DNA of 32,146 nt from Candidatus Uhrbacteria bacterium (GTDB taxonomy: Bacteria; Patescibacteriota; Patescibacteriia; UBA9934; GWF2-40-263). Shown here piece by piece: positions 1 to 12,090 of this stretch. How positions within the stretch are numbered: position 1 is the stretch's first letter; each line of letters begins with the position of its first letter. The notes beneath the pieces are model-generated. The model saw only the letters and a program-made list of their open reading frames with translations, was not told the DNA's origin and did no database searches. The translations under genes were made by a program, and so were the position numbers. The stretch spans positions 1-32,146 of the forward strand of contig JACRJU010000010.1 of the NCBI GenBank assembly GCA_016219925.1. The letters are read 5' to 3'.

Positions 1-61
1 AATGTGGAGATGGAAGGAGGAGGAATTGTTGCGACATTCAACCGCCGGCAAACAACCCGTC

Positions 62-134
62 GGTGCGATGATATGAACATAGGGGAATCCATAGGGTTCC
101 TCCCGTGATTCACCTGTGTTCATATCATCGCACC
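62..134. repeat. 73-nt long inverted repeat (hairpin)
   Basis: An 18-bp perfect inverted repeat has arms at 62-79 and 117-134 (arm GGTGCGATGATATGAACA). The pairing nearly extends through the next few bases, and a second G/C-rich partial stem lies inside the loop. No T-run follows on the plus strand. It sits just upstream of the promoter of the secreted protein at 192 and resembles in size the hairpin at 1044-1115 behind that gene. It could be a terminator of an upstream gene, a processed RNA stem, or a small palindromic repeat. Confidence 0.6.
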
Positions 135-154
135 CCAGGGGTCTGTATCTCCTG

Positions 155-163
155 TGATATACT
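155..163 (+). promoter_or_regulatory. Extended -10 promoter element
   Basis: TGATATACT is an extended -10 (TG-N-TATACT) about 28 nt before the ATG at 192. It predicts a start near 170 and a leader of roughly 20 nt with no Shine-Dalgarno site. Confidence 0.5.
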
Positions 164-191
164 ATCCATGCTATTTCTTAACTTCGTCTCT

Positions 192-1004
192 ATGACTAAA
201 CGCCTTTCTCTTATTTCGATCCTCGCGACAGCAATCGCGCTTGCGACGCTGGTTGCCTTCGCCACGTTCACCCGCCCTGCGAGCGCCGCCACGCTCGTCA
301 CTCCAGAAGCGCTTCAAGCAGGCGACCTGATTCGCGGACAAAGTTATGCGGCCGTCTATTACTATGGCACCGATGGCTTCCGCTACGTCTTCCCCAACGA
401 CAAAACGTATTTCACCTGGTACAAAAACTTTGACACCGTCAAATGGCTTTCGGATGATGATCTCTCAACGATCCAAATCGGTGGAAATGTCACGTATAAG
501 CCGGGGATAAAAATGATCAAGATTAATTCCGATCCGAAAGTGTATGCGGTCGGTGCGAGCGGAACCATCCGCGCTGTGACTTCAGAAGCCATCGCCTCCG
601 GACTCTACGGCAACGACTGGAACAAAAAGATTGATGACATGCCAGATGGATTCTTCTCAAACTATAAGATGGGCAAATCCGTTGAGGCCGTCTCGGGCTT
701 CAGCGTCACGGGCGAAATGGCTGATGCGACTGACATCAACACAGACAAAGGCCTCAAAGCCGCCACTAAAATTACGATCAGTGCAAGTGGCTTTAGCCCG
801 TCGTCAGTGACGATCCAAGCCAAAACCGCCGTGCGTTTTGTGAACATGGACTCGGTCAAACACTCTGCCAGCTCCGACAACGGGACCTGGGGAACGGGAA
901 CCCTGCCCGCTGGCAAACACTTCTCCCGCTACTTTAAAGAGGCCGGCACTTTCACCTATCATGATGCCTACGGGAATTATCTTGGAACGATCATTGTGCA
1001 ATGA
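192..1004 (+). CDS. Secreted protein with CPR-type envelope domain and cupredoxin-like C-terminus
   Basis: A signal peptide (MTKRLSLIS..., hydrophobic core, cleavage after RPASA) leads into a region with the pattern GxxYAAVYYYGTDGFRYVFP and NVTYKPGxKMIKI. From memory, this kind of region recurs in secreted proteins of Patescibacteria, and its function is unknown. The last ~80 residues (KITISASGFSPSSVTI ... GTIIVQ) look like a cupredoxin/plastocyanin fold. A His is kept (VKHSAS), but the loop that normally carries the Cys-x-His-x-Met copper ligands reads TYHDAYGNYL, without Cys or Met. Type-1 copper binding is therefore doubtful. The start at 192 is chosen because it opens a clean signal peptide and fits the promoter. 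GTG 105 and ATG 168 are in-frame alternatives. A large hairpin terminator follows. Confidence 0.75.
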   Translation: MTKRLSLISILATAIALATLVAFATFTRPASAATLVTPEALQAGDLIRGQSYAAVYYYGTDGFRYVFPNDKTYFTWYKNFDTVKWLSDDDLSTIQIGGNVTYKPGIKMIKINSDPKVYAVGASGTIRAVTSEAIASGLYGNDWNKKIDDMPDGFFSNYKMGKSVEAVSGFSVTGEMADATDINTDKGLKAATKITISASGFSPSSVTIQAKTAVRFVNMDSVKHSASSDNGTWGTGTLPAGKHFSRYFKEAGTFTYHDAYGNYLGTIIVQ

Positions 1005-1043
1005 TTTGAACCGCGTGAGTGTCGACATTGAATAGACGAATCG

Positions 1044-1131
1044 GTCAGGATGATGTCCTGTCTCCGGGCCAACGGACTCGTCGCCGTTGTTCCCTCCGAC
1101 AGGCATCATCCTGACTAATCATCTCTTTTTT
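1044..1131 (+). terminator. Long-hairpin terminator
   Basis: Arms at 1044-1062 and 1098-1115 pair over 18 bp with a single-base bulge (GTCAGGATGATG / CATCATCCTGAC core). The loop contains a smaller AACGG/CCGTT stem. A T6 run follows at 1126-1131. It most likely ends transcription of the secreted protein gene, although the arms are longer than in a typical intrinsic terminator. Confidence 0.55.
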
Positions 1132-1182
1132 CACTCGACAGAACTCCCGCGGTTTTATAATTCCAGGATCTGACCTTTGTGT

Positions 1183-1188
1183 TACAAT
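1183..1188 (+). promoter_or_regulatory. -10 box of the transketolase operon
   Basis: TACAAT ends 9 nt before the ATG at 1198, so the predicted transcript begins at or within a few nt of the start codon (leaderless or nearly so). No Shine-Dalgarno sequence is present. Confidence 0.45.
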
Positions 1189-1197
1189 GACTGCGTT

Positions 1198-2094
1198 ATG
1201 CCGAACCTCACTCTTGGGCCTCGAGTACGAAAACCTCTACACTTGCACGATCGCGCGCTCAAAAAGCTTGAAGAGCGCGCTCTCACCATGCGCAAGGACC
1301 TCATCACCATGCTCGTCGAAGCGGGCTCCGGCCATAGTGCCGGACCGCTTGGTATGGCCGATATTTTTACGGCTCTATACTTTCATATCATGGTGCATGA
1401 TCCAAAAAAACCAAACTGGGAATTGCGCGATCGACTCATTTTGTCCAACGGACACATCTGTCCGATCCGTTATGTCGCCATGGCACACGCCGGATACTTC
1501 CCCAAATCTGAACTCATGACCCTGCGTAAGTTCGGCACGCGCCTGCAGGGCCACCCCGAGCGCAAAAAATTGCCCGGCGTGGAAACGACATCGGGCCCGC
1601 TTGGTTCGGGTTCGTCCCAAGCCGTCGGGATGGCTTATGTCGGTCTGCTCGACCGCCGGCCTTGGCGGGTTTATTGCGTGATGAGCGATGGAGAACTCGA
1701 AGCAGGGCAAACGTGGGAAGCGATGCTTTTTGCAGGACGCAATAAACTCTACAACTGCACATTCATCATTGATCGCAACAACATTCAGATTGATGGACAG
1801 ACAGAGGAAGTGATGCCACTGGAACCTCTGCAAGCTAAGTTTGAAGCGTTCGGACTCAATGTGATCCGATGCGCCGGCAATTCTATTCGAGAGTTTGTTT
1901 CATCCGTTGAACATGCCCATGGGGTGAGTGAAAAACCCACCGTCATCATCGCCGACACGGTCCCGGGTTACGGTGTAGACTTTATGGAATACGATTTTTC
2001 CTGGCACGGGAAACCCCCCACATTCACCGAAGGAAAAGAAGCGCTCGCGTGGTTGCGAACCCTTGGCGGAAAAATTAAGAGCGAACACGAATGA
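1198..2094 (+). CDS. Transketolase, N-terminal (TPP pyrophosphate-binding) subunit
   Basis: This is the PP-module half of a split transketolase, which moves two-carbon ketol units between sugar phosphates in the non-oxidative pentose phosphate pathway using thiamine diphosphate and Mg2+. The GxGHSAGPLGMADI segment (~43-56) and the metal/TPP motif SDGE (163-166) followed by NN (194-195) are visible. The usual first Gly of GDGE is Ser here. Length is 298 aa, normal for the small subunit. ATG 1198 is preferred over an upstream TTG because the TTG lies before the -10 box. The C-terminal subunit follows one base after the stop, so the two are almost surely co-translated and form one enzyme. Confidence 0.93.
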   Translation: MPNLTLGPRVRKPLHLHDRALKKLEERALTMRKDLITMLVEAGSGHSAGPLGMADIFTALYFHIMVHDPKKPNWELRDRLILSNGHICPIRYVAMAHAGYFPKSELMTLRKFGTRLQGHPERKKLPGVETTSGPLGSGSSQAVGMAYVGLLDRRPWRVYCVMSDGELEAGQTWEAMLFAGRNKLYNCTFIIDRNNIQIDGQTEEVMPLEPLQAKFEAFGLNVIRCAGNSIREFVSSVEHAHGVSEKPTVIIADTVPGYGVDFMEYDFSWHGKPPTFTEGKEALAWLRTLGGKIKSEHE

Positions 2095-2095
2095 T

Positions 2096-3109
2096 ATGAC
2101 ACCGCGACGAACACAAACAGGCATCAACCACGAAGCGTATCTCGTACGCCATCTGTTTGATCCAGATAAACTCAAACAAATCCCAACACGAAACGGCTAC
2201 GGAGAAGGTCTCGTTGAAGCAGGCAAAAAGGATAAAAATATCATGGTGCTCTGCGCCGACCTCACCGAATCCACCCGATCGCTCGCGTTCAAAGAGGCCT
2301 TTCCGGATCGCTTCGTACAACTTGGCGTTTCCGAGCAGTCTATGGCTTCGATCGCGGCGGGCATGGCGATCACTGGCAAGGTGCCGTTTATCTCAAGCTA
2401 CGCGTGTTTTTCTCCCGGCCGCAACTGGGAGCAGATCCGAACAACAGTTGCCCTTCAAAACAGCAACGTCAAGATCGCTGGCGCTCATGCGGGTGTTTCC
2501 GTTGGGCCAGACGGCGCGACTCACCAGATGATCGAAGACATCGCGATCATGCGGGTGATGCCCAACATGCGCGTAATCGTTCCTTGTGACTCGGTCGAAA
2601 CAAAAAAAGCGACTCTTGCCATAAGTGCCGCAGTCGGCCCGTGCTATTTTCGATTCGCCAGGGAAAAATCCCCGGTCTTCACGACCGACAAAACCCCGTT
2701 CAAAATAGGACACGCGGAAACGTATCGCTTCGGCGCGGATGTGACGATCATCGGAACTGGCCCATTGTTATACGAAGCGCTGTTGGCCGCACAAGTCTTG
2801 TCCGTTGATCACGGCATTGAAGCGCGCATCATCAATCTGCACACCATCAAGCCACTCGATGAAAAAACGATCGTCAAAGCGGCAAAAGAAACCGGGGCGA
2901 TTGTGACGGTCGAGGAAGCCCAAGCGGCCGGAGGTCTTGGAGGCGTCGTGGCCGAAACACTCGCCCTGCACACCCCGGTTCCAATGGAACGCATCGGCGT
3001 GCAAGACCGATTTGGAGAGTCTGGAGAGCCTCGCGAATTGCTCGAAAACCTGGGTTTGACAGCTCCATCTATCATTCAAGCCGTCCTAACCGTTCTTAAA
3101 CGTAAGTGA
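2096..3109 (+). CDS. Transketolase, C-terminal (pyrimidine-binding) subunit
   Basis: This is the partner of the preceding gene. It supplies the pyrimidine-binding domain (~33-190) and the transketolase C-terminal domain (~200-320). The conserved Glu that activates the thiamine ring is in GVSEQSMASIAAGMA (E80), and the VGPDGATHQMIEDIAIMR loop is intact. It begins one base after the stop of the N subunit at ATG 2096. An in-frame TTG at 2063 lies inside the upstream gene and is less likely. Length is 337 aa. Split transketolases are common in archaea and CPR bacteria. Confidence 0.93.
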   Translation: MTPRRTQTGINHEAYLVRHLFDPDKLKQIPTRNGYGEGLVEAGKKDKNIMVLCADLTESTRSLAFKEAFPDRFVQLGVSEQSMASIAAGMAITGKVPFISSYACFSPGRNWEQIRTTVALQNSNVKIAGAHAGVSVGPDGATHQMIEDIAIMRVMPNMRVIVPCDSVETKKATLAISAAVGPCYFRFAREKSPVFTTDKTPFKIGHAETYRFGADVTIIGTGPLLYEALLAAQVLSVDHGIEARIINLHTIKPLDEKTIVKAAKETGAIVTVEEAQAAGGLGGVVAETLALHTPVPMERIGVQDRFGESGEPRELLENLGLTAPSIIQAVLTVLKRK

Positions 3110-3115
3110 TCCCCT

Positions 3116-4087
3116 ATGTTTGATCTCATCACCATCGGCGACATTAAACTCGACGCCTTCATTTCGCTTGATCGGTGTAAAGATAAGTGCGACTTGCGTT
3201 TAAAAAAAATCGAGTTTGCTTTCGGGGAAAAAATCTCCGTGGATTTGCTGTCCCAACAAATCGCCGGCTCGGCGCCAAATGTCGCCACCGCGTTAAGCCG
3301 AATGGGAAAGCATACCGCAATCATCAGCCACATGGGAGACGACCAAACCCGTGATCACGCGATGGATATCTTAAAAAAAGAACAGGTAGAAACAGATTTC
3401 GTAGCGTCCTACCGTCGGACTTCGAGCGCTTATTCAACGGTTCTTTCCTTGCAAGGAGAAAAAACTATTCTCGTTTCTTATCTTCATAAAATTCTCAAAC
3501 TCCCCCACCCTTTTCCAAAAACCAAATGGATCTATTTGTGCGAAATGGGAAATGCTTATGAAAAAACTTATCGGCAACTTCTGCGCGAACTCAAAAAAGA
3601 TCACGTTTTGCTCGGGTACAATCCGGGGAATGAGCAGATCCGCGATCGCAAACCGGAATTATTCGACATGATCGCCCGCGCCAATGTGCTTTTTGTCAAC
3701 GTCGAGGAGGCCCAGCGCATTGTGGGTAACACGCGGCTCAAGGTGAAACATCTCGCCGAAGCGCTCTTTGCCATGGGCCCGTCCGAAGTCGTCATTACGG
3801 ATGGAAAAAACGGTTCCTACGGATATAACGGGACGTGTCTTTTTTTCTGCCCGGTCTTTCCGGGAGAACGGATTGAATCAACGGGCGCTGGCGACTCCTT
3901 TGCCTCCGCCTATATTGGCGCCAACATGAACGGAGGGTCCATGCAAGAAGCCCTGCGCTGGGGATCGGTCAACGCGGCATCTGTCGTGCACGAGATCGGG
4001 CCGACCCAAGGACTCCTCACACAAAAACAAATCCAGAAACGTCTACGGACCGCAACGGATTTCACTGTTTCAATGATCGCTGAATAA
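3116..4087 (+). CDS. PfkB/ribokinase-family carbohydrate kinase
   Basis: This ATP-dependent sugar or nucleoside kinase of the ribokinase superfamily starts MFDLITIGDIKLDAF. It has the substrate-side GSAPNVATALSRMG segment and the C-terminal anion-hole/catalytic motif STGAGDSFASAYIGA, where the GAGD Asp is the catalytic base. Length is 323 aa. The substrate cannot be read from sequence; a sugar phosphate or ribose-type substrate fits the transketolase neighbours. It follows the transketolase C subunit by 6 nt in the same operon. Its 3' end overlaps the converging reverse-transcriptase remnant by 26 bp. A paralogue lies at 7372. Confidence 0.88.
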   Translation: MFDLITIGDIKLDAFISLDRCKDKCDLRLKKIEFAFGEKISVDLLSQQIAGSAPNVATALSRMGKHTAIISHMGDDQTRDHAMDILKKEQVETDFVASYRRTSSAYSTVLSLQGEKTILVSYLHKILKLPHPFPKTKWIYLCEMGNAYEKTYRQLLRELKKDHVLLGYNPGNEQIRDRKPELFDMIARANVLFVNVEEAQRIVGNTRLKVKHLAEALFAMGPSEVVITDGKNGSYGYNGTCLFFCPVFPGERIESTGAGDSFASAYIGANMNGGSMQEALRWGSVNAASVVHEIGPTQGLLTQKQIQKRLRTATDFTVSMIAE

Positions 4088-5067
4088 TTTTTGTGCGTAG
4101 GGTGTGACCCTGACAATGCTTCAACAAGCCGAAATAGGATTGGATGTTCGAGCAGTCAACTCGCCTCAACATCCTCCGCTTTGTCTTTGTCCGAAGCACA
4201 CGGTAATGCGGAAGGGTCACGTAACCCAAAAAATCTATCCCTTGCCTAAGTTTACGAATCTCCACTTTATTTGGATGGAGCCTAAGCCGCCGTTCATGCC
4301 ACAGCCACTGTTCGATGATTGGAACAAGTAAAGATAACTTTTGATGGTCGGAATCAAGAATCACCGCGTCATCGGTATACCGAATATAATACGGGATCCT
4401 AAGCTCATCTTTGATAAAATGATCAAATGCATCCAAGTAGACGTTTGCAAATAGTTGGGAGGTTAAATTGCCGATGGGAAGCCCTGTCGGTTGTTTTGTT
4501 TCAATTAACGACCCCCCCCCCGACGGCGTTTTGTCTTGAAAAGCTTGAGACAACTTCTTGTAGCAAGTCGATTACTCCCTGAGCTTGTCGAAGGGCTAAT
4601 CGACTTCTTAAAACATTCAACAAAATCTCGTGATCCACCGAATCAAAAAATTTCTTGATATCGAACTTCAACGCCCAACAAGGTTTCTGATAATTACGAC
4701 TTACTTTCCGAGCAAACATCTCAAGACGATCAACGGCGGCGTGTGTTCCTTTTCCAATCCGACAAGAATAGCTATCAAAAATAAATGAACGATCTAACAC
4801 CGGATAAAGAACACGATAAATCGCATGATGAACAAGACGATCACGCACAGTTGCTTTGTGAATGATGCGGTGCTTGGGATCAAAAATGTGGAACCGCTGA
4901 TAGGAACCGTGTCTGTAACGACCGCATCGCAAATCATCGTACAACTGAAAAAGATAATCCTCGAGATCGCGTTCGAACTCCTGAACATCTGCTCTGCCAC
5001 GCTTCCCGCGACGAAACTCGTACCAGGCAGAAAAGAGATTCTCTAAACTGACTATTTGTTCAAACAT
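4062..5067 (-). pseudogene. DGR-type reverse transcriptase, frameshifted at a G10 tract
   Basis: The two reading frames together give a complete DGR/group-II-like reverse transcriptase. The first part (188 codons from ATG 5067) has a full N-terminus (MFEQIVSLENLFSAWYEF), the HKATVRDRLVHHAIYRVLYP region and motif A LKFDIKKFFDSVDHEIL. The second frame has GLPIGNLTSQLFANVYL, a signature of DGR RTs, the catalytic YTDD and the C-terminal FLGYVTLPHYRVLRTKTKRRM and SYFGLLKHCQGH. The break is at ten Gs (4512-4521). Nine or twelve would restore one frame: ...NAVGGGSLIETKQPTGLPIGN. A REP-like repeat (LRQAQGV, residues ~159-165) has also entered the gene. The cause may be decay, phase variation or a homopolymer sequencing error. 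Confidence 0.85.
4577..4595. repeat. REP-like palindrome inside the RT gene
   Basis: CCCTGAGCTTGTCGAAGGG is a widely dispersed bacterial short repeat. On the coding strand it is read as LRQAQGV within the reverse transcriptase. Confidence 0.7.
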
Positions 5068-5357
5068 ATTGGTATCTCAATCTTCGCAATATCCCAAAGC
5101 GTGATCGATTTACATGGGGCGAACACTGTGAAAATTTAGCTCTGAATCTTCTGAAGATAATCACCAATGCTCCATACCTGTCTCGAAACCAAAAACAAAT
5201 TGAAATTTTTACAGCCAGTCAACTCGTTGATCAACTCAAAGTATTTTTACGGCTTGGACATGACCTTCATATTCTGCCAACAAAACATAGTATTCCACGA
5301 CAAGCCGACTTGCAAGAAATCGGGCGCATGCTTGGTGGTTGGATAAAAACATTTTGA
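5052..5357 (+). pseudogene. 5'-truncated Avd-like four-helix-bundle protein (DGR accessory)
   Basis: The plus-strand frame from the stop at 5049 to TGA 5355-5357 reads a 101-residue helical protein ending LQEIGRMLGGWIKTF. That is the characteristic C-terminus of bacterial Avd-type proteins, which bind the DGR reverse transcriptase. The segments KRDRFTWGEHCENLALNLL and DQLKVFLRLGHDLHIL match the family pattern. There is no ATG, and the expected first ~15-20 residues are missing where the RT gene begins in the opposite direction. In most DGRs avd lies on the same strand as target and RT. Here it is inverted and its 3' end runs antisense into the target gene. This looks like a remnant left by rearrangement. 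Confidence 0.72.
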
Positions 5358-6252
5358 GAACAGCCAGGACGCGGAAAGCAATGTTGTCGTTCGGATTGTC
5401 GTGCCAGTTCCTGTTCACGTCCGCAAGACCACCAAGGTCACGGTAACCGACGACGAGGAAATAGCCAGCGTCGTACGAGTTGAGGCACCCCTCCCAGGAG
5501 TTGGTGGAGCCGAGGTCCGGCAGGCTCATGTTCCTGTTGACGTTCAGCCACAGGAACAGGTTGCCGATCAGGTTCCACTCCTCGGAGGTCGGCAGGCGAA
5601 GAGCGCGATTGGGGAGGCCGAAGAGCTTCACCGCCCTGGGCAGGATCGTCGCGGTCAGATGATCCCATGAGATCTTGAAGCGCGTCGTGATCTGAAGATC
5701 CTGACCGAGCAGGTCACCCTCGTAGCCCTTGGGGTCTCCCCAGTTGGGCTTCGCGATCATCTCGATGAGAACCCACCGACCGGGAAGAGGCTTGTGCTCG
5801 ATCTTGCTTCCATCGATGTGACGACCCCAGGCAGGCTTCACGAAGCTGTCAGGATAGTCGTTCTCGGTGATGGAGGGCAGGAAGACGAGCAGGAGCCTGT
5901 AGCGTTCGATCGCTTTCCTCGTCTTGCCCTTGATCTTGGGAACGGACGGGATGTTGATCTTGCGGCCGAGGATTGCCTCCCAGCACTGCTCCCAGAAGGC
6001 GCGCGGATCGATGTCGTAGGCGGCCCAGCCGTCGGTCGGTTCCGTCGCAGTGGGACGCGTGCGCTCGTTCACCTGCTCAGCAAGCCAGTTAGCGAGCACA
6101 TCCGGCGTCAACTTCCCCTGAGCGAAGAGTTCGCCCAGAGTGTTCGTGACCGTGTGATGGTCGAGCAGACCGTTGAGACCCGCGGAGGTGAAGTGAAGAC
6201 GGTGCTCGAGAACCTTCTCGAGCCAGGAAGGCAATGGCATCAACTGATTCAT
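5236..6252 (-). CDS. DGR-type target protein with C-type-lectin/FGE-like fold
   Basis: The protein has 338 aa from ATG 6252, which is preceded by GGTGGGAGA at a good distance; an upstream in-frame start at 6363 is less likely. The N-terminal ~110 residues are helical and unrecognised. The C-terminal half carries formylglycine-generating-enzyme/C-lectin features: RLPTSEEWNLIGN, NSWEGCLNSYDAGYF, then a Gly/Asn-rich segment GGLADVNRNWHDNPNDNIAF followed by RVLAVL. Variable regions of DGR targets end with this kind of NRNW...N(I)xFR stretch. After RVLAVL the frame continues for ~40 residues antisense to the avd remnant, so the natural C-terminus may have been lost. Composition differs from the flanking metabolic genes (few A-runs, many GAG/CTC/GTC), which suggests transfer. 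Confidence 0.7.
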   Translation of the reverse strand: MNQLMPLPSWLEKVLEHRLHFTSAGLNGLLDHHTVTNTLGELFAQGKLTPDVLANWLAEQVNERTRPTATEPTDGWAAYDIDPRAFWEQCWEAILGRKINIPSVPKIKGKTRKAIERYRLLLVFLPSITENDYPDSFVKPAWGRHIDGSKIEHKPLPGRWVLIEMIAKPNWGDPKGYEGDLLGQDLQITTRFKISWDHLTATILPRAVKLFGLPNRALRLPTSEEWNLIGNLFLWLNVNRNMSLPDLGSTNSWEGCLNSYDAGYFLVVGYRDLGGLADVNRNWHDNPNDNIAFRVLAVLKMFLSNHQACARFLASRLVVEYYVLLAEYEGHVQAVKIL

Positions 6253-6420
6253 CTTGTCATCTCCCACCTTGCTCTTCAGAACCGCTTCACCACTAGTGAC
6301 TCGATCCTGACATTCCAAGGTGCAAGTTGTGCACGGTTCCGTCGTGCGGCGGGCCACAGGCAAGGTGCCTGATGAACTGAAATAAGATACAGAAATATAG
6401 CCAAAAAGTCAATAGACCGA

Positions 6421-6426
6421 TATACT
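6421..6426 (+). promoter_or_regulatory. -10 box for aldolase operon (leaderless)
   Basis: TATACT ends 7 nt before the ATG at 6434, placing the predicted transcription start on or next to the start codon. There is no Shine-Dalgarno site and no convincing -35. Confidence 0.5.
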
Positions 6427-6433
6427 TCGTAAT

Positions 6434-7357
6434 ATGCTCACCTCCCTTTCTTCCATTCTCACAAAAGCCCAGCGCGGCCGTTATGCGGTCGGTGCTTTTA
6501 ACATCAACAACCTGGAAACACTCCAAGCGGTCATGGATGCCGCACAGGCCGAGCGCTCGCCGGTCATTGTGCAAACCTCCGAGGGGGCGATCGACTATGC
6601 GGGGATGGACGAACTCGCCGCGCTCGTTCACTTAGCCGCCAAGCGCACGAGCCGGCCGGTCGTTTTCCATCTTGACCATGGGAAAAATTACGACCTTGTG
6701 GTCAGAGCGATTATAAGCGGTTTCTACACGAGCGTGATGTTTGACGGATCTTCCCTCCCCTATAAGGAAAACGTACGCCGCACCAAAAAACTCGTCGAGA
6801 TGGCACACAAAAAAGGGATAAGCGTGGAAGCAGAACTCGGGCTTATCGCCGGCAAAGAAGATTTCGTCTCCGTCGCCGAACATGAAGCGGCCATGACCCA
6901 ACCGGCGCAGGCGGCTGACTTTATCAAACAAACGGGATGCGATGCTCTTGCGGTTGCGATCGGCACGCGTCACGGGGCTTTCAAAATGAAAACAGAATCC
7001 ACTCTCGACTTTGAACGTCTCAAACAAATTGCCGAAGCGGTCAGTGTTCCACTTGTCCTTCACGGCGCCTCGGGAGTTCCCTCACGCATCAAAACCCTCT
7101 GTACAAAATACGGCTGTGAGATCGCTTCGGCTAAAGGGATCCCCGATATTCAAATTAAAAAAGCCGTGTCGCTTGGAATTTGCAAAGTGAACATTGATAC
7201 CGATTTAAGAATTGCCTTTGACGCCGGTATTCGAAAATTTTTGAAAGAAAAGCCTGGGGTCATTGATCCGCGCGAAATTTTGAAACCTGCCAAAGCCCTC
7301 ATCACACAGGTCGCCCGCCACAAAATGAAACTGTTTGGATCATCAGGAAAAGCTTAG
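6434..7357 (+). CDS. fba: Class II fructose-bisphosphate aldolase
   Basis: This zinc-dependent aldolase interconverts fructose 1,6-bisphosphate with glyceraldehyde 3-phosphate and dihydroxyacetone phosphate. Visible elements are the N-terminal GRYAVGAFNINNLET, the catalytic/zinc pair in FHLDHG (D81, H82), the VEAELG metal-site segment (~131-136), GTRHG (H180), LHGASG (H210; usually LHGGSG), and KVNIDTDLR, which binds the substrate phosphate. Length is 307 aa, typical for the family. It opens the second half of the carbon-metabolism cluster, followed at 15 nt by a PfkB kinase. Confidence 0.92.
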   Translation: MLTSLSSILTKAQRGRYAVGAFNINNLETLQAVMDAAQAERSPVIVQTSEGAIDYAGMDELAALVHLAAKRTSRPVVFHLDHGKNYDLVVRAIISGFYTSVMFDGSSLPYKENVRRTKKLVEMAHKKGISVEAELGLIAGKEDFVSVAEHEAAMTQPAQAADFIKQTGCDALAVAIGTRHGAFKMKTESTLDFERLKQIAEAVSVPLVLHGASGVPSRIKTLCTKYGCEIASAKGIPDIQIKKAVSLGICKVNIDTDLRIAFDAGIRKFLKEKPGVIDPREILKPAKALITQVARHKMKLFGSSGKA

Positions 7358-7371
7358 ATTTGTATCCCCCT

Positions 7372-8343
7372 ATGTTTGACATCATTACCATCGGAGGTGC
7401 CACGCGAGACGTCTTTTTGGTTTCCGACAAATTTCTCTCCATTCGATCCAAAAAAATTCCAAGCGGAGTTGGTGAATGTGTGGCGCTTGGGAGCAAAATC
7501 GAAGTGGACCAACTCGTTTTAACGACCGGCGGCGGGGCAACAAACGCGGCCGCGACATTTGCTTCTCTTGGTTTCCATACCGCAACCATGACGCGCATTG
7601 GGGACGACTCGACCGGAAAAGACGTCATCGATGATTTGAGTGCTTTCGGTGTTAGCACCCATTTTGTTCGGATGATAAAAGGCGGACAAACCGGCTATTC
7701 GGTTTTGCTCACCATGAGGGACGGCGAACGAACGATTTTGACGTTTCGTGGAGTCTCTTCACAGTTCGAACAAAAAGATATCCATTGGGGTGGTTGCGAA
7801 CAAACAAAGTGGATCTATCTGACATCGCTTGGAGGGAATCTCGCCTTATCAAAAAAAGTGATCGAAAACGCTCGTCGGTGCAACATTAAGGTGGCATGGA
7901 ATCCTGGAAAAGGAGAATTGAAATCCGGCATGAAATCGTTTTTAGCTCTTCTGCCGATGATCGATATTCTGACTATGAATCTTGAAGAGGCGAAACTGTT
8001 GACGGGGAAAAAACACGTGACTGGAATATTCAAAATGTTACAGAGCGACGGCAAAATTCGTCTCATCACAGATGGCACAAACGGATCGCATGTCTGGCGC
8101 GATGGGTGGATGGCACATGCTGGCACGACCGGAGTAAAAGCCGTGTCGCGCACGGGAGCCGGCGACGCGTTTGGATCTGGATTTGTCGCGGGATTTATTA
8201 AAAGAGAGGATATCAGATACGCGCTCGCCATCGGTACCTTAAATGCAGAGTCTGTCGTGCAACAATTTGGCCCAAAACTCGGTATCTTAAAAAAATGGCC
8301 TGGCACGCTAACGACCAAAAAAATCAAAATTCAAACCTTATGA
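7372..8343 (+). CDS. PfkB/ribokinase-family carbohydrate kinase (second copy)
   Basis: This paralogue of the kinase at 3116 has a near-identical opening (MFDIITIGGATRDVF), a GGGATNAAATFASLG substrate-binding segment and the catalytic motif RTGAGDAFGSGFVAGF near the C-terminus. Length is 323 aa. ATG 7372 is chosen by homology with the paralogue over TTG 7360. Lying directly after aldolase, it could be a fructose-phosphate kinase or a kinase of another sugar; specificity is not visible. Its stop codon overlaps the next gene's start (ATGA). Confidence 0.88.
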   Translation: MFDIITIGGATRDVFLVSDKFLSIRSKKIPSGVGECVALGSKIEVDQLVLTTGGGATNAAATFASLGFHTATMTRIGDDSTGKDVIDDLSAFGVSTHFVRMIKGGQTGYSVLLTMRDGERTILTFRGVSSQFEQKDIHWGGCEQTKWIYLTSLGGNLALSKKVIENARRCNIKVAWNPGKGELKSGMKSFLALLPMIDILTMNLEEAKLLTGKKHVTGIFKMLQSDGKIRLITDGTNGSHVWRDGWMAHAGTTGVKAVSRTGAGDAFGSGFVAGFIKREDIRYALAIGTLNAESVVQQFGPKLGILKKWPGTLTTKKIKIQTL

Positions 8344-9326
8344 GTTATGCTGTCTTCGTCACGCGCGATATCCCAGATCGGGGACTTCAGATGCTTCGCG
8401 CAAACAAAAAAATCAAACTCGACATTTATGAAAAAGACGAACAGATCCCGCGCAAAGAACTGTTGCGACGAGTAAAAGGCGCGGACATCATCCTTTCCAT
8501 TTTAACGGAACGAATGGATAAAGAAGTGTTCGATGTGGCCGGAACTCAACTCAAAATGATCGCCAACTACGCGGTCGGCTTTGATAATGTGGATCTTGCG
8601 GAAGCAAAACGTCGAGGACTTGTGGTCACAAACACTCCTGGAGATCTCATTTCCGAATCGGTCGCCGAGCATACGATCGCGCTCATGTTCGCGCTCGCAC
8701 ACCGGGTCTGCGAAGGCGATCGTTATACGCGCGCAGGAAAATATAAAGCGTGGGGACCAAAACTCCTCCTGGGAACAGACTTCTACGGCAAAACGGTTGG
8801 AATTATCGGAAGTGGCCGAATTGGAGCTGGTGTTGTCAGACGTCTCCATGACGGCTTCAATATGAAAATTGTCTACAATGACGTGAAACGAAATAAAGAG
8901 CTTGAACTGAAAACCGGCGCCAAATACAGAACACTCGAACAACTTCTCAAAGAATCTGACTTTGTATCTGTGCATGTTCCTTTGCTTGCTTCAACGAGAC
9001 ATCTCATTGGCACAAAAGAACTCAAGCTCATGAAAAAAACCGCGTTTCTTATTAACACGGCGCGCGGACCGATCATCGATGAAAAAGCCCTCTTGCAAGC
9101 GCTTGCAAAAAAAGAAATCGCCGGAGCCGGACTTGATGTGTACGAATGCGAGCCCCTTATTGATTGCGATCCAAAGGACAATTTAGACTTACGAAAAATG
9201 GACAATGTCGTTCTCACTCCACACACCGCCTCGGCTATAGAAGCTACACGTCAACAAATGAGCGAAATCGCTGCAAAAAATATCCTCGCGTTCATCGTCG
9301 GCAAAACGCCCCCAAATATTATTTAA
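8340..9326 (+). CDS. D-isomer-specific 2-hydroxyacid dehydrogenase (glyoxylate/hydroxypyruvate reductase-like)
   Basis: This is an NAD(P)-dependent oxidoreductase of the D-2-hydroxyacid dehydrogenase family. It has a catalytic domain at both ends and a central Rossmann domain with GSGRIGAGV (GxGxxG). Catalytic residues are visible: Arg in NTARGPIIDE, Glu in LDVYECEP and His in LTPHTASA. Length is 328 aa. It starts in a 4-nt overlap (ATGA) with the preceding kinase, so it is translationally coupled. The likely reaction is reduction of glyoxylate, hydroxypyruvate or a related keto acid. D-lactate or 3-phosphoglycerate dehydrogenase activity cannot be excluded. Confidence 0.87.
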   Translation: MSYAVFVTRDIPDRGLQMLRANKKIKLDIYEKDEQIPRKELLRRVKGADIILSILTERMDKEVFDVAGTQLKMIANYAVGFDNVDLAEAKRRGLVVTNTPGDLISESVAEHTIALMFALAHRVCEGDRYTRAGKYKAWGPKLLLGTDFYGKTVGIIGSGRIGAGVVRRLHDGFNMKIVYNDVKRNKELELKTGAKYRTLEQLLKESDFVSVHVPLLASTRHLIGTKELKLMKKTAFLINTARGPIIDEKALLQALAKKEIAGAGLDVYECEPLIDCDPKDNLDLRKMDNVVLTPHTASAIEATRQQMSEIAAKNILAFIVGKTPPNII

Positions 9327-9889
9327 TAATAGTGTCCCCCTTTTATTTCCGGAAACTTTCGCTTTTGAAATGTCACAACCATATACCATCCCCACGAAAC
9401 AATTTTGTTATCTTTGCCGATAAAATCAAACCAGATACGTGGAAAAACCGACCGATCTAACCAACGAGTCGGTTCTTTTTCTTGTGGATCACACAAAATA
9501 ATATTTTTATCGGTGACGTTCACCACCACGCTGTAGTGATCTTCATCTTCAGAAAACCAACCGATGATAACAGGCAATTTTTCTTTTTTGACAAAATATT
9601 CGAGTTCTTCAATCGAGCCCTCTTCTTTCACAAAAACAAATCCGTTCAATTCCTTGATCGTCGAGATCATTCCTTCATGTTCGGTTCCCTGTTCCAAAGT
9701 CGCTTAACCCAATTTTGCGAGTTCTTCTTCCGAATATGTTTTTGCAAAATAGGACAAAAGAATTTTAAGCGACGCCGGTCCGCACAGACCGGCTGTCTGC
9801 AGAAAATGTTGGACATGAACGTTATCAGACGGTTCTGTCAACCGCTCAATTGATATCATGGGTTCACTTTTTGGGGCTTCGTCTAACAT
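9323..9889 (-). pseudogene. Peptidase C39-like protein interrupted by an in-frame TAA
   Basis: Read through, this is a papain-fold C39-like protein: Cys in QTAGLCGPASLKILLSYF, His in SEDEDHYSVVVNV and Asp in ILCDPQEKEPTRW, in the order expected for the catalytic triad. The first part ends ...EELAKLG at TAA 9704-9706. The same frame resumes immediately with ATLEQGTEHEGM, the expected continuation, so a single-base change (for example from a Lys or Glu codon) explains the break. The start is uncertain: ATG 9913, 9889 or 9859, the last lying 4 nt after the upstream gene's stop. It is likely coupled to the gene at 10538. Confidence 0.75.
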
Positions 9890-10538
9890 AGTATTTTTCT
9901 CGAATCTGATCATCCGTCAATTTCGACCAAGGGTAATGATCGTCGAGTGGATAAAAGCCTCCGTATGCGCGCCGCATTTCCTTTTCAGCTGCCGTTGCAT
10001 ATTCGTGCGCGATATCATAACTCTTTCCTTTAAACATCATCTTACGTTCAATGGTTTCATGATGGATGGCAAAAGGAATCTCTTTGGGGTGAAGCGCACA
10101 TTCAATCCAAATCTCCCCTTTTGGCACATAACGGTACACTTTTTCATGCCCTCCTTGGGTAAATTCAGGATCAAGGTACTGCCGGACCACCTTTCCGTCA
10201 ACCAAAACGATGCGAGACCCGAGGCGCCAATGAGTTTTGACACGAAAATTTGGAATCGGTCCTTTCTTGCACAGTTTTGCCTTCAAATATTCATGAAAAT
10301 CTGCGGAAGTTTTTATGGTTTTCGGATGCACAATCGCTTCGCTCTTTAAAAAGAAATCCATCTCATCTTTTAATCGGACATCCAGCCACCATTCTCCTTG
10401 AGGGATATAATACTTGGGCGTGTAGTATTTATGGATGGCCGTGGAATGACAATGAAGCGCCGAAAAATCCGGATCCAGTGTTTGCCGAATCTTGAAAGCG
10501 TCAACAAGACGAACCAACGATGGATCAATGCGTGGCAT
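9864..10538 (-). CDS. Hypothetical protein with two homologous half-domains
   Basis: I do not recognise a named family. The 224-aa protein shows an internal duplication. Residues ~12-60 (VDAFKIRQTLDPDF ... YYIPQGEWWLDVRLKDEMDFFLKSEAI) parallel ~114-165 (VDGKVVRQYLDPEF ... YRYVPKGEIWIECALHPKEIPFAIHHETI). The second half ends with HHETIERKMMFKGKSYDIAHEYA, whose HHExxER spacing hints at a metal-binding helix. The first half has lost those residues. An AAGGAGG sequence lies only 2 nt before ATG 10538, unusually close. It precedes the C39-like gene in the same direction, which may make a small operon. Confidence 0.7.
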   Translation of the reverse strand: MPRIDPSLVRLVDAFKIRQTLDPDFSALHCHSTAIHKYYTPKYYIPQGEWWLDVRLKDEMDFFLKSEAIVHPKTIKTSADFHEYLKAKLCKKGPIPNFRVKTHWRLGSRIVLVDGKVVRQYLDPEFTQGGHEKVYRYVPKGEIWIECALHPKEIPFAIHHETIERKMMFKGKSYDIAHEYATAAEKEMRRAYGGFYPLDDHYPWSKLTDDQIREKYYVRRSPKK

Positions 10539-10578
10539 ATCCTCCTTTTGATTGATTCATTGTAAACAAATTCTCAAC

Positions 10579-10599
10579 AAAAAAACACCCATGAGGTGT
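10579..10599 (-). terminator. Intrinsic terminator after tRNA-Ala
   Basis: On the minus strand, ACACC-TCATG-GGTGT is followed by seven Ts, directly behind the encoded CCA end. Confidence 0.6.
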
Positions 10600-10675
10600 G
10601 GTGGACCTGAAGGGGCTCGAACCCTTGACCTTCTGCTTGCAAAGCAGACGCTCTAGCCAACTGAGCTACAGGCCC
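10599..10675 (-). tRNA. tRNA-Ala (anticodon UGC), CCA encoded
   Basis: The acceptor stem GGGCCTG/CAGGTCC, a D-arm TAGCTCAGTTGGCTAGA, an anticodon stem TCTGC/GCAGA around loop TTTGCAA, and a T-arm GGGTTCGAGCCCC are all present. The 3' CCA is encoded (10599-10601). Confidence 0.95.
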
Positions 10676-10770
10676 AAAATCAGAAGAAGAACGCTGCGGA
10701 TCTTAACAATCCATACCCCTCTTGTCAATTTCACTCACGACGATAGCCGAGGTATCATATCGGAACAAAT

Positions 10771-12090
10771 ATGCAACGAATCATTCTCTTGTCGATCTTT
10801 CTCTCCACCGCCATTTTTCCGCAAATCGCTCTTGCTTCTCATGGTCAAACGAATCCTCTTATTGTCGATCTCAAGAAAGATGTCCAGATTCAAACTCCTT
10901 CAGGAATGGGAGTCTCTGTTGCGGTTGCCGATCTTGGTGAAGACGGCGTGCCGGAGCTCATTGTCGCAAACGGTCTGGGTCAAGAACCTCGAGTCCGTGT
11001 GCTTCGACAAGACGGAACGGAAATTGGCAGTTTCCTTGCCTATGCTCCGACGCTTGGCGTGGGCATTCACGTGGTGACGTGCGATTTAAACGGCGATGGT
11101 AAACCAGAAATCATCACAGCGCCCGAACGTGGCGGCGGACCGCAGGTACGCGTGTTTGATCACCTCGGCAAAACCATCGGGGTTGGCACATTTGTCTATG
11201 ACCAAACGTTTCGCGGTGGAGTAAATCTGGTTTGCGGAGATGTGCTCGGTGATGCACGCGATGAATTGATCACTCTGCCTGAAGCCGGAGGAGGCCCTCA
11301 TGTGCGCGTGTGGAATCTGGAAAAAGAATCGCTTGCTCTCACGACCGAATTTTTTGCTTTCGACGCTACAGATCGTCACGGACTTACGGGAACCATCTTT
11401 GATCATCAGCTCATCGTCTCGCAACAGCATACGCACACCCCGATCATACGAACATTTTCTCTTACACAATCTTCGACGAAACGCATGGATGAACAATCTT
11501 TTTCTGTTGAAGCAACAGGAATCTCGTCCATGGTTATCCACAACCATCATCTGCTTGCCTCAACAACATCAAACGCAACCCTTGTTGATCTGACGGCGCA
11601 TACAACAAAAAAAATTTCGGATACGATTGCAAGCGTTGTGCTTGTCTCTGCTGACCTGAACACGGACGGCGAACCGGAATTGATTCAAGCGCAAGCGCGA
11701 CCTTCTTTCGATAATCAAGATAAGACACGTATTCTTGTCGATCTTTCTCAACAACGTTTATACGCTTACACGGATGGAATTTTAGAAAATAGTTTTCTTA
11801 TTTCTAGCGGAAAAAACAATGCAACACCAATCGGAAATCATTCAATTTTAGCCAAAATTCCTAAAGTCAGGTATCGATGGGTCTACGGACCCGGTGATCC
11901 GCGCAACTATGATCTCGGTTTAGTCCCCTACAATCTTAGATTCAAAGAACATCTCTACATCCACTATGCCTACTGGCACAATAATTTTGGCCATCCCATG
12001 TCGCGCGGTTGCGTGAACGTCTCTTTGACAAACATAAAGTGGCTCTACGATTGGGCGACGCCCGGAATGGCTGTTGATATTGTGAAGTAA
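10771..12090 (+). CDS. Secreted FG-GAP repeat protein with C-terminal L,D-transpeptidase (YkuD) domain
   Basis: The 439-aa exported protein has a signal peptide with cleavage near FPQIALA-S. Residues ~35-190 carry FG-GAP/VCBS-type beta-propeller repeats with Ca-binding-like DLNGDGKPEIITA and related DLGEDGVPELIVA segments. Residues ~310-439 form an L,D-transpeptidase domain, beginning ILVDLSQQRLYAY and containing HPMSRGCVNVS with catalytic Cys ~414 and His in IHYAYWH. Such enzymes make 3-3 peptidoglycan crosslinks or attach proteins to the wall. The propeller may bind surface ligands. It stands alone between tRNA-Ala (opposite strand) and a histone-like gene. Confidence 0.88.
   Translation: MQRIILLSIFLSTAIFPQIALASHGQTNPLIVDLKKDVQIQTPSGMGVSVAVADLGEDGVPELIVANGLGQEPRVRVLRQDGTEIGSFLAYAPTLGVGIHVVTCDLNGDGKPEIITAPERGGGPQVRVFDHLGKTIGVGTFVYDQTFRGGVNLVCGDVLGDARDELITLPEAGGGPHVRVWNLEKESLALTTEFFAFDATDRHGLTGTIFDHQLIVSQQHTHTPIIRTFSLTQSSTKRMDEQSFSVEATGISSMVIHNHHLLASTTSNATLVDLTAHTTKKISDTIASVVLVSADLNTDGEPELIQAQARPSFDNQDKTRILVDLSQQRLYAYTDGILENSFLISSGKNNATPIGNHSILAKIPKVRYRWVYGPGDPRNYDLGLVPYNLRFKEHLYIHYAYWHNNFGHPMSRGCVNVSLTNIKWLYDWATPGMAVDIVK

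Follow-up and report, generated by a model that had tools for sequence, protein, structure and literature searches.

In the DGR of Bordetella phage BPP-1, the components follow one another in the order mtd-avd-TR-brt, all on one strand. Other arrangements are known: Schillinger et al. 2012 (PMC3521204) described inverted DGRs as their group 4, where, in three gammaproteobacteria, the RT is the only inverted part, and the same study reported isolated RT frameshifts that were interpreted as inactivation. More recently, Roux et al. 2021 (PMC8144416) delineated in their main text a DGR clade 2 that is cellular and restricted to Patescibacteria. In a term search, that main text was found to mention neither strand nor orientation nor accessory gene and, as far as the text was searched, DGRs are not joined there to frame-switching repeats. 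Clade 2 is very probably the same set as the divergent cassettes described below. How do DGR-bearing cells keep a working variant and yet produce new ones?

The locus considered here lies on contig JACRJU010000010.1 of a Candidatus Uhrbacteria bacterium, in a stretch of 32,146 nucleotides (the window), and its cassette comprises the following features:

4062..4553, minus strand: second part of the RT, in another frame; ORF matching RVT_1, model positions 173-300
4501..5067, minus strand: first part of the RT, with its ATG at 5065-5067; ORF matching RVT_1, model positions 1-179
4512..4521, minus strand: G10 tract (RT strand) marking the RT frame break; relatives have G9-12 at the same place
4577..4595, no strand assigned: CCCTGAGCTTGTCGAAGGG repeat, an in-frame insertion in the RT
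5052..5357, plus strand: avd fragment, a stop-to-stop frame including the TGA at 5355-5357; ORF with a profile match
5064-5351, plus strand: bAvd domain within the avd fragment, lacking the start codon and the first 17 codons
5236..6363, minus strand: DGR target ORF, running past its natural end into the antisense of avd
5358..5482, minus strand: the single remaining repeat (VR), with a TR-like 3' end GGCTGTTC adjoining the avd stop; probably a TR/VR fusion

The two RT frames meet at the G10 tract and both match RVT_1; the gene is out of frame in this assembly. In the RT tree the window and five further rows, including L053, L054, and L046, form a clade with a support of 99, and the window RT is nested among RTs that have adenine-type TR/VR pairs. 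The CCCTGAGCTTGTCGAAGGG element, beside the G tract, is an interspersed repeat; elsewhere in the genome it occurs once more as an exact copy and twice with one mismatch. On the plus strand, the 101 aa encoded by the frame at 5052-5357 match Pfam PF22296 bAvd (E=1.7e-14, profile 12-106/107) and, under the cut-off of 80, NCBIfam DivGenRetAVD (E=5e-17, 62 bits); no ATG, GTG, or TTG start was found in this frame. The sequence-only reading of the window had placed an avd fragment at these coordinates, and the profile match bears it out. The same reading was right that avd lies on the strand opposite to the RT and the target, which are both on the minus strand, and that its end is antisense to the target ORF over 122 bp.

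Is a divergent avd unusual in these bacteria? Among 40 loci from the same family and order, avd is antisense to the RT, start-to-start, in every cassette with both genes. A wider set with a class-wide sample gave 85 divergent avd-RT pairs out of 94, with four on the same strand, like BPP-1, and five in other arrangements. In named Patescibacteria genomes, which include Uhrbacteria, Kaiserbacteria, Nomurabacteria, Peribacteria, Kazan, Moranbacteria, and Microgenomates, all 76 pairs are divergent (80 loci, 76 with an avd in reach). L074, L075, and a few others, which have an avd-like protein with no RT nearby, were left out of the comparison. At L120 and L123, two avd genes lie around or beside one RT. 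Thus, the alternative offered by the sequence-only reading, that this lineage normally carries a divergent avd, stands.

On the RT strand, the elements usually follow one another as target (with its VR), TR, avd in antisense, and RT. In relatives the 3' end of the TR lies between -5 and +48 bp from the avd stop and that of the VR 341-717 bp away. At more than 30 loci TR and VR differ by 11-29 mismatches at adenines of the template, against at most eight others. The genome of the window itself contains a second DGR on contig C13, in which the RT and target are on the minus strand, a full-length avd diverges on the plus strand, and the TR/VR pair is clear. This second cassette is exceptional in having its TR beyond the RT and its VR 33 bp from avd, the only VR found in such a position. 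In this cassette (L012, 8095-8236 and 9885-10026) the position of the TR is unlike that in nearly all relatives, and the RT sits on a long branch.

What has happened to the copy in the window? The locus is likely to be a decayed copy of an ordinary DGR of the Patescibacteria type, in which the RT frame break is probably a switch and not a sign of decay. One lesion is a net deletion of 46 nt that took the avd ATG and the first 17 codons and spared the RT ATG. In L053, L054, and L046, the palindrome CATATG holds the overlapping start codons of the RT and avd; in the window, CATATT stands where these closest relatives have CATATG, and the 51 nt that lead up to avd codon 18 in relatives correspond to 5 nt. 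The avd start and the following codons are gone, and the overlapping ATG of the RT is retained. The sequence-only reading had remarked that avd lacks its N-terminus where the RT begins; the observation is correct, and the apparent end falls exactly at the RT start because this small deletion removed one start codon and spared the other.

A second lesion would be the loss of the interval between VR and TR, which are direct repeats and probably recombined with each other. A direct-repeat search found no TR in the window, an adenine-aware diagonal scan found none in positions 1-12000, and whole-genome BLAST with the VR found no second copy in the assembly; a TR/VR pair with mismatches at template adenines is thus absent from the locus, which is a decayed remnant and not a working DGR. 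The remaining repeat starts at the base after the avd stop (0 bp), the position of the TR in relatives, and its 3' end, GGCTGTTCT, resembles that of the TR of L053 and L054. The VR of these two loci terminates in GGCGTTCTC, followed by the target stop. Adenines are retained at 6/13 positions in the 5' half of the window repeat and at 12/13 in the 3' half, a pattern that agrees with a TR/VR hybrid and points the same way, and is not significant (permutation p=0.11). One deletion between TR and VR would account together for the absence of a TR, the absence of a target stop, and the overlap of 122 bp, since loss of the interval leaves the target without a stop and lets it run into the antisense of avd. 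We infer this route; the window cassette may instead once have had a layout like that on C13 and have lost a distal TR. Recombination inside the cassette, which had been proposed earlier as the origin of the avd orientation, does not explain that orientation and enters only as the probable cause of the lost interval. The third lesion, the shift of the RT out of frame at the G10 tract, is probably not decay. Because the TR and the avd start are gone, a restored RT frame would be insufficient in cis at this locus.

Could the lesions have been produced by the assembly, with TR and VR merged, the G tract miscounted, the avd truncation unreal, and the real cassette intact? The assembly consists of 15 contigs and is 93% complete, TR and VR are near-identical repeats, and homopolymers are error-prone, and a collapse of TR and VR is possible. 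However, the 46 nt lost from avd lie in unique sequence without a repeat, and the G tract is common to relatives in different frames. It is improbable that the cassette as a whole is intact, and the reading of a decayed copy is preferred.

Tracts of this kind are not peculiar to the window. In a pooled set of 155 non-redundant divergent cassettes, 99 have a simple-repeat tract in the avd leader only, 15 in the RT only, none in both, and 41 have none of the sizes scanned. The leader tracts, C8-13 or (CT)n, (CA)n, or (GA)n, lie between the avd ATG and the conserved domain, and the unit is replaced at the same place, from C to CT, CA, or GA. The RT tracts fall in a loop of the RT; in other lineages they are G9-12 or (CT)8-12/(GA)16, at about nt 540-650 of the RT. 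Besides the window (4512-4521), RT tracts are found at L046, L053, L054, L067, L124, L128-L130, L132, L143, L144, L148, L154, and L179; the RT tree requires at least three changes to explain this location, and the tract-free cassettes include a supported clade of 20 rows.

The repeats are concentrated in the cassettes. A tract lies in or just before a frame in 114 of the 155, and there are 116 repeats in 216.5 kb of cassette compared with eight in 851 kb outside, a 57-fold difference in density. In the genome of the window, two of the only four G/C runs of at least nine in 874 kb fall in its two DGR cassettes. No such repeats were found in 65 same-strand viral DGRs used as a control, and three of 14 divergent viral contigs have one. 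These 14 IMG/VR contigs (L259, L261-L271, L276, L294), 11 of them without a repeat, are classed as viral and carry a divergent cassette of the Patescibacteria type; they are either phages of Patescibacteria or misclassified host contigs. Outside the two main positions, a (CT)18 stands just before the RT start of a same-strand cassette (L127, 4354-4389), and (CCAT)5, G8, and G9 occur near or beyond the 3' end of the RT (L236, L133, L049 7248).

How does tract length relate to the reading frame? In 99/99 leader-tract cassettes an upstream ATG is open into the tract, and in 99/99 the avd frame is open back to it; for the remaining two frames the figure is 156/198. The sequence ahead of the tract encodes peptides that reappear in different genomes (MSQLNFHN-like), which indicates that this upstream part is coding. 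With tract lengths taken as one assembly value per genome, which may contain assembly errors, 26 leader tracts keep avd in frame and 73 do not, a split that agrees with an in-frame share of one third (p=0.17). The complete domain is retained in 97 of the 99, most of which are out of frame. No alternative ATG, GTG, or TTG follows the tract in 50 of the 73 out-of-frame avd genes; in the other 23 a TTG or GTG after the tract might start Avd. In a first sample, 39/42 cassettes that lacked a leader tract had an in-frame ATG, against 14/42 of those with one (Fisher p=1.3e-8). The RT-tract cassettes divide into seven in frame and eight out, so that both frame states occur with an intact downstream gene for avd and RT alike. 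The G10 tract is common to the window, L054, and L067, all with the RT out of frame, and the RT is in frame in L046 (G9), L053 (G12), and L179 (G11). Two paralogous cassettes of one genome share a leader but differ in tract length: one has C10 and is in frame, the other has C8 and is out of frame.

Taken as a reading of sequence, these patterns suggest, with a probability of roughly 0.8, that slipped-strand mispairing makes the DGR of Patescibacteria phase-variable: a hypermutable tract, located in avd or in the RT, would stochastically and heritably toggle targeted hypermutation, and would have been acquired repeatedly, at different cassette positions. The length of the tract would set whether Avd or the RT is made. 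Slipped-strand mispairing in living cells would alter this length and return a fraction of cells to the in-frame state; these cells would then undergo mutagenic retrohoming, and the remainder would keep the current variable protein. As retrohoming requires Avd in the systems characterised (PMC10053308), diversification should cease when avd or the RT is out of frame, and retrohoming would be lost in OFF cells with the target still expressed. If this is true, the majority of cells would hold the current variant and few would diversify, and a contingency repeat in an essential component would answer the question posed above for a lineage rich in cellular DGRs. The seemingly broken avd and RT genes of Patescibacteria would then be reversible OFF states. 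Surveys that discard frameshifted RTs or assume a same-strand avd would misjudge the cassettes of this group.

Homopolymers of such length can cause transcriptional slippage. An alternative is that polymerase or ribosome slips on C9-11/G9-12 in a programmed manner and supplies every cell with a little Avd or RT at all times. The 73/99 cassettes that are out of frame would fit this, but in-frame and out-of-frame tracts occur side by side at close to 1:2, as expected if tract length drifts, and the homopolymer gives way in some cassettes to long dinucleotide repeats, for instance (CT)n; programmed slippage is an unlikely explanation. Still less credible is that the tract has a structural function in the template RNA, such as in cDNA priming, for which the coding phase would be irrelevant. 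The tract is on the RT strand downstream of the TR in most cassettes and its homopolymers are always G in the sense of that strand; however, it moves between the avd leader and the middle of the RT, its unit changes to CT, CA, or GA, and it is absent from 41/155 cassettes, among them the 20-row clade. The weakest proposal, made in the sequence-only reading, was an inversion in a canonical, BPP-1-like cassette that turned avd around and removed its N-terminus, which would suit an antisense gene truncated at the RT start and the few Patescibacteria with same-strand cassettes; it is refuted by the comparison of order and strand, since relatives and the C13 cassette of the same genome carry a divergent, full-length avd, and the RT junction of the window is that of its relatives minus 46 nt.

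Phase variation of the DGR thus remains the preferred reading. Literature searches that combined DGR with phase variation or slipped-strand mispairing returned only papers on BPP-1 adapting to the phase variation of its host; the switch is apparently unreported, and the divergent avd layout is possibly known. Compared with BPP-1, the relatives of the window share an RT, Avd, an adenine-directed TR/VR pair, and a C-terminal VR in the target. They differ in that avd is antisense to and divergent from the RT, that the TR lies between target and avd, and that the cassettes carry simple repeats in avd or RT, which the same-strand viral DGRs lack. As in group 4 of Schillinger et al. 2012 (PMC3521204), the parts of the cassette are spread over two strands, but here the RT, TR, VR, and target share one strand and avd is opposite. 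The contingency loci of Neisseria, Campylobacter, and Helicobacter are similar in having a poly-C/G or dinucleotide tract in coding sequence, the length of which sets the frame, with the gene intact on both sides. There, the switched gene encodes a surface structure or a modification enzyme, whereas the switched DGR gene would drive targeted hypermutation of another gene.
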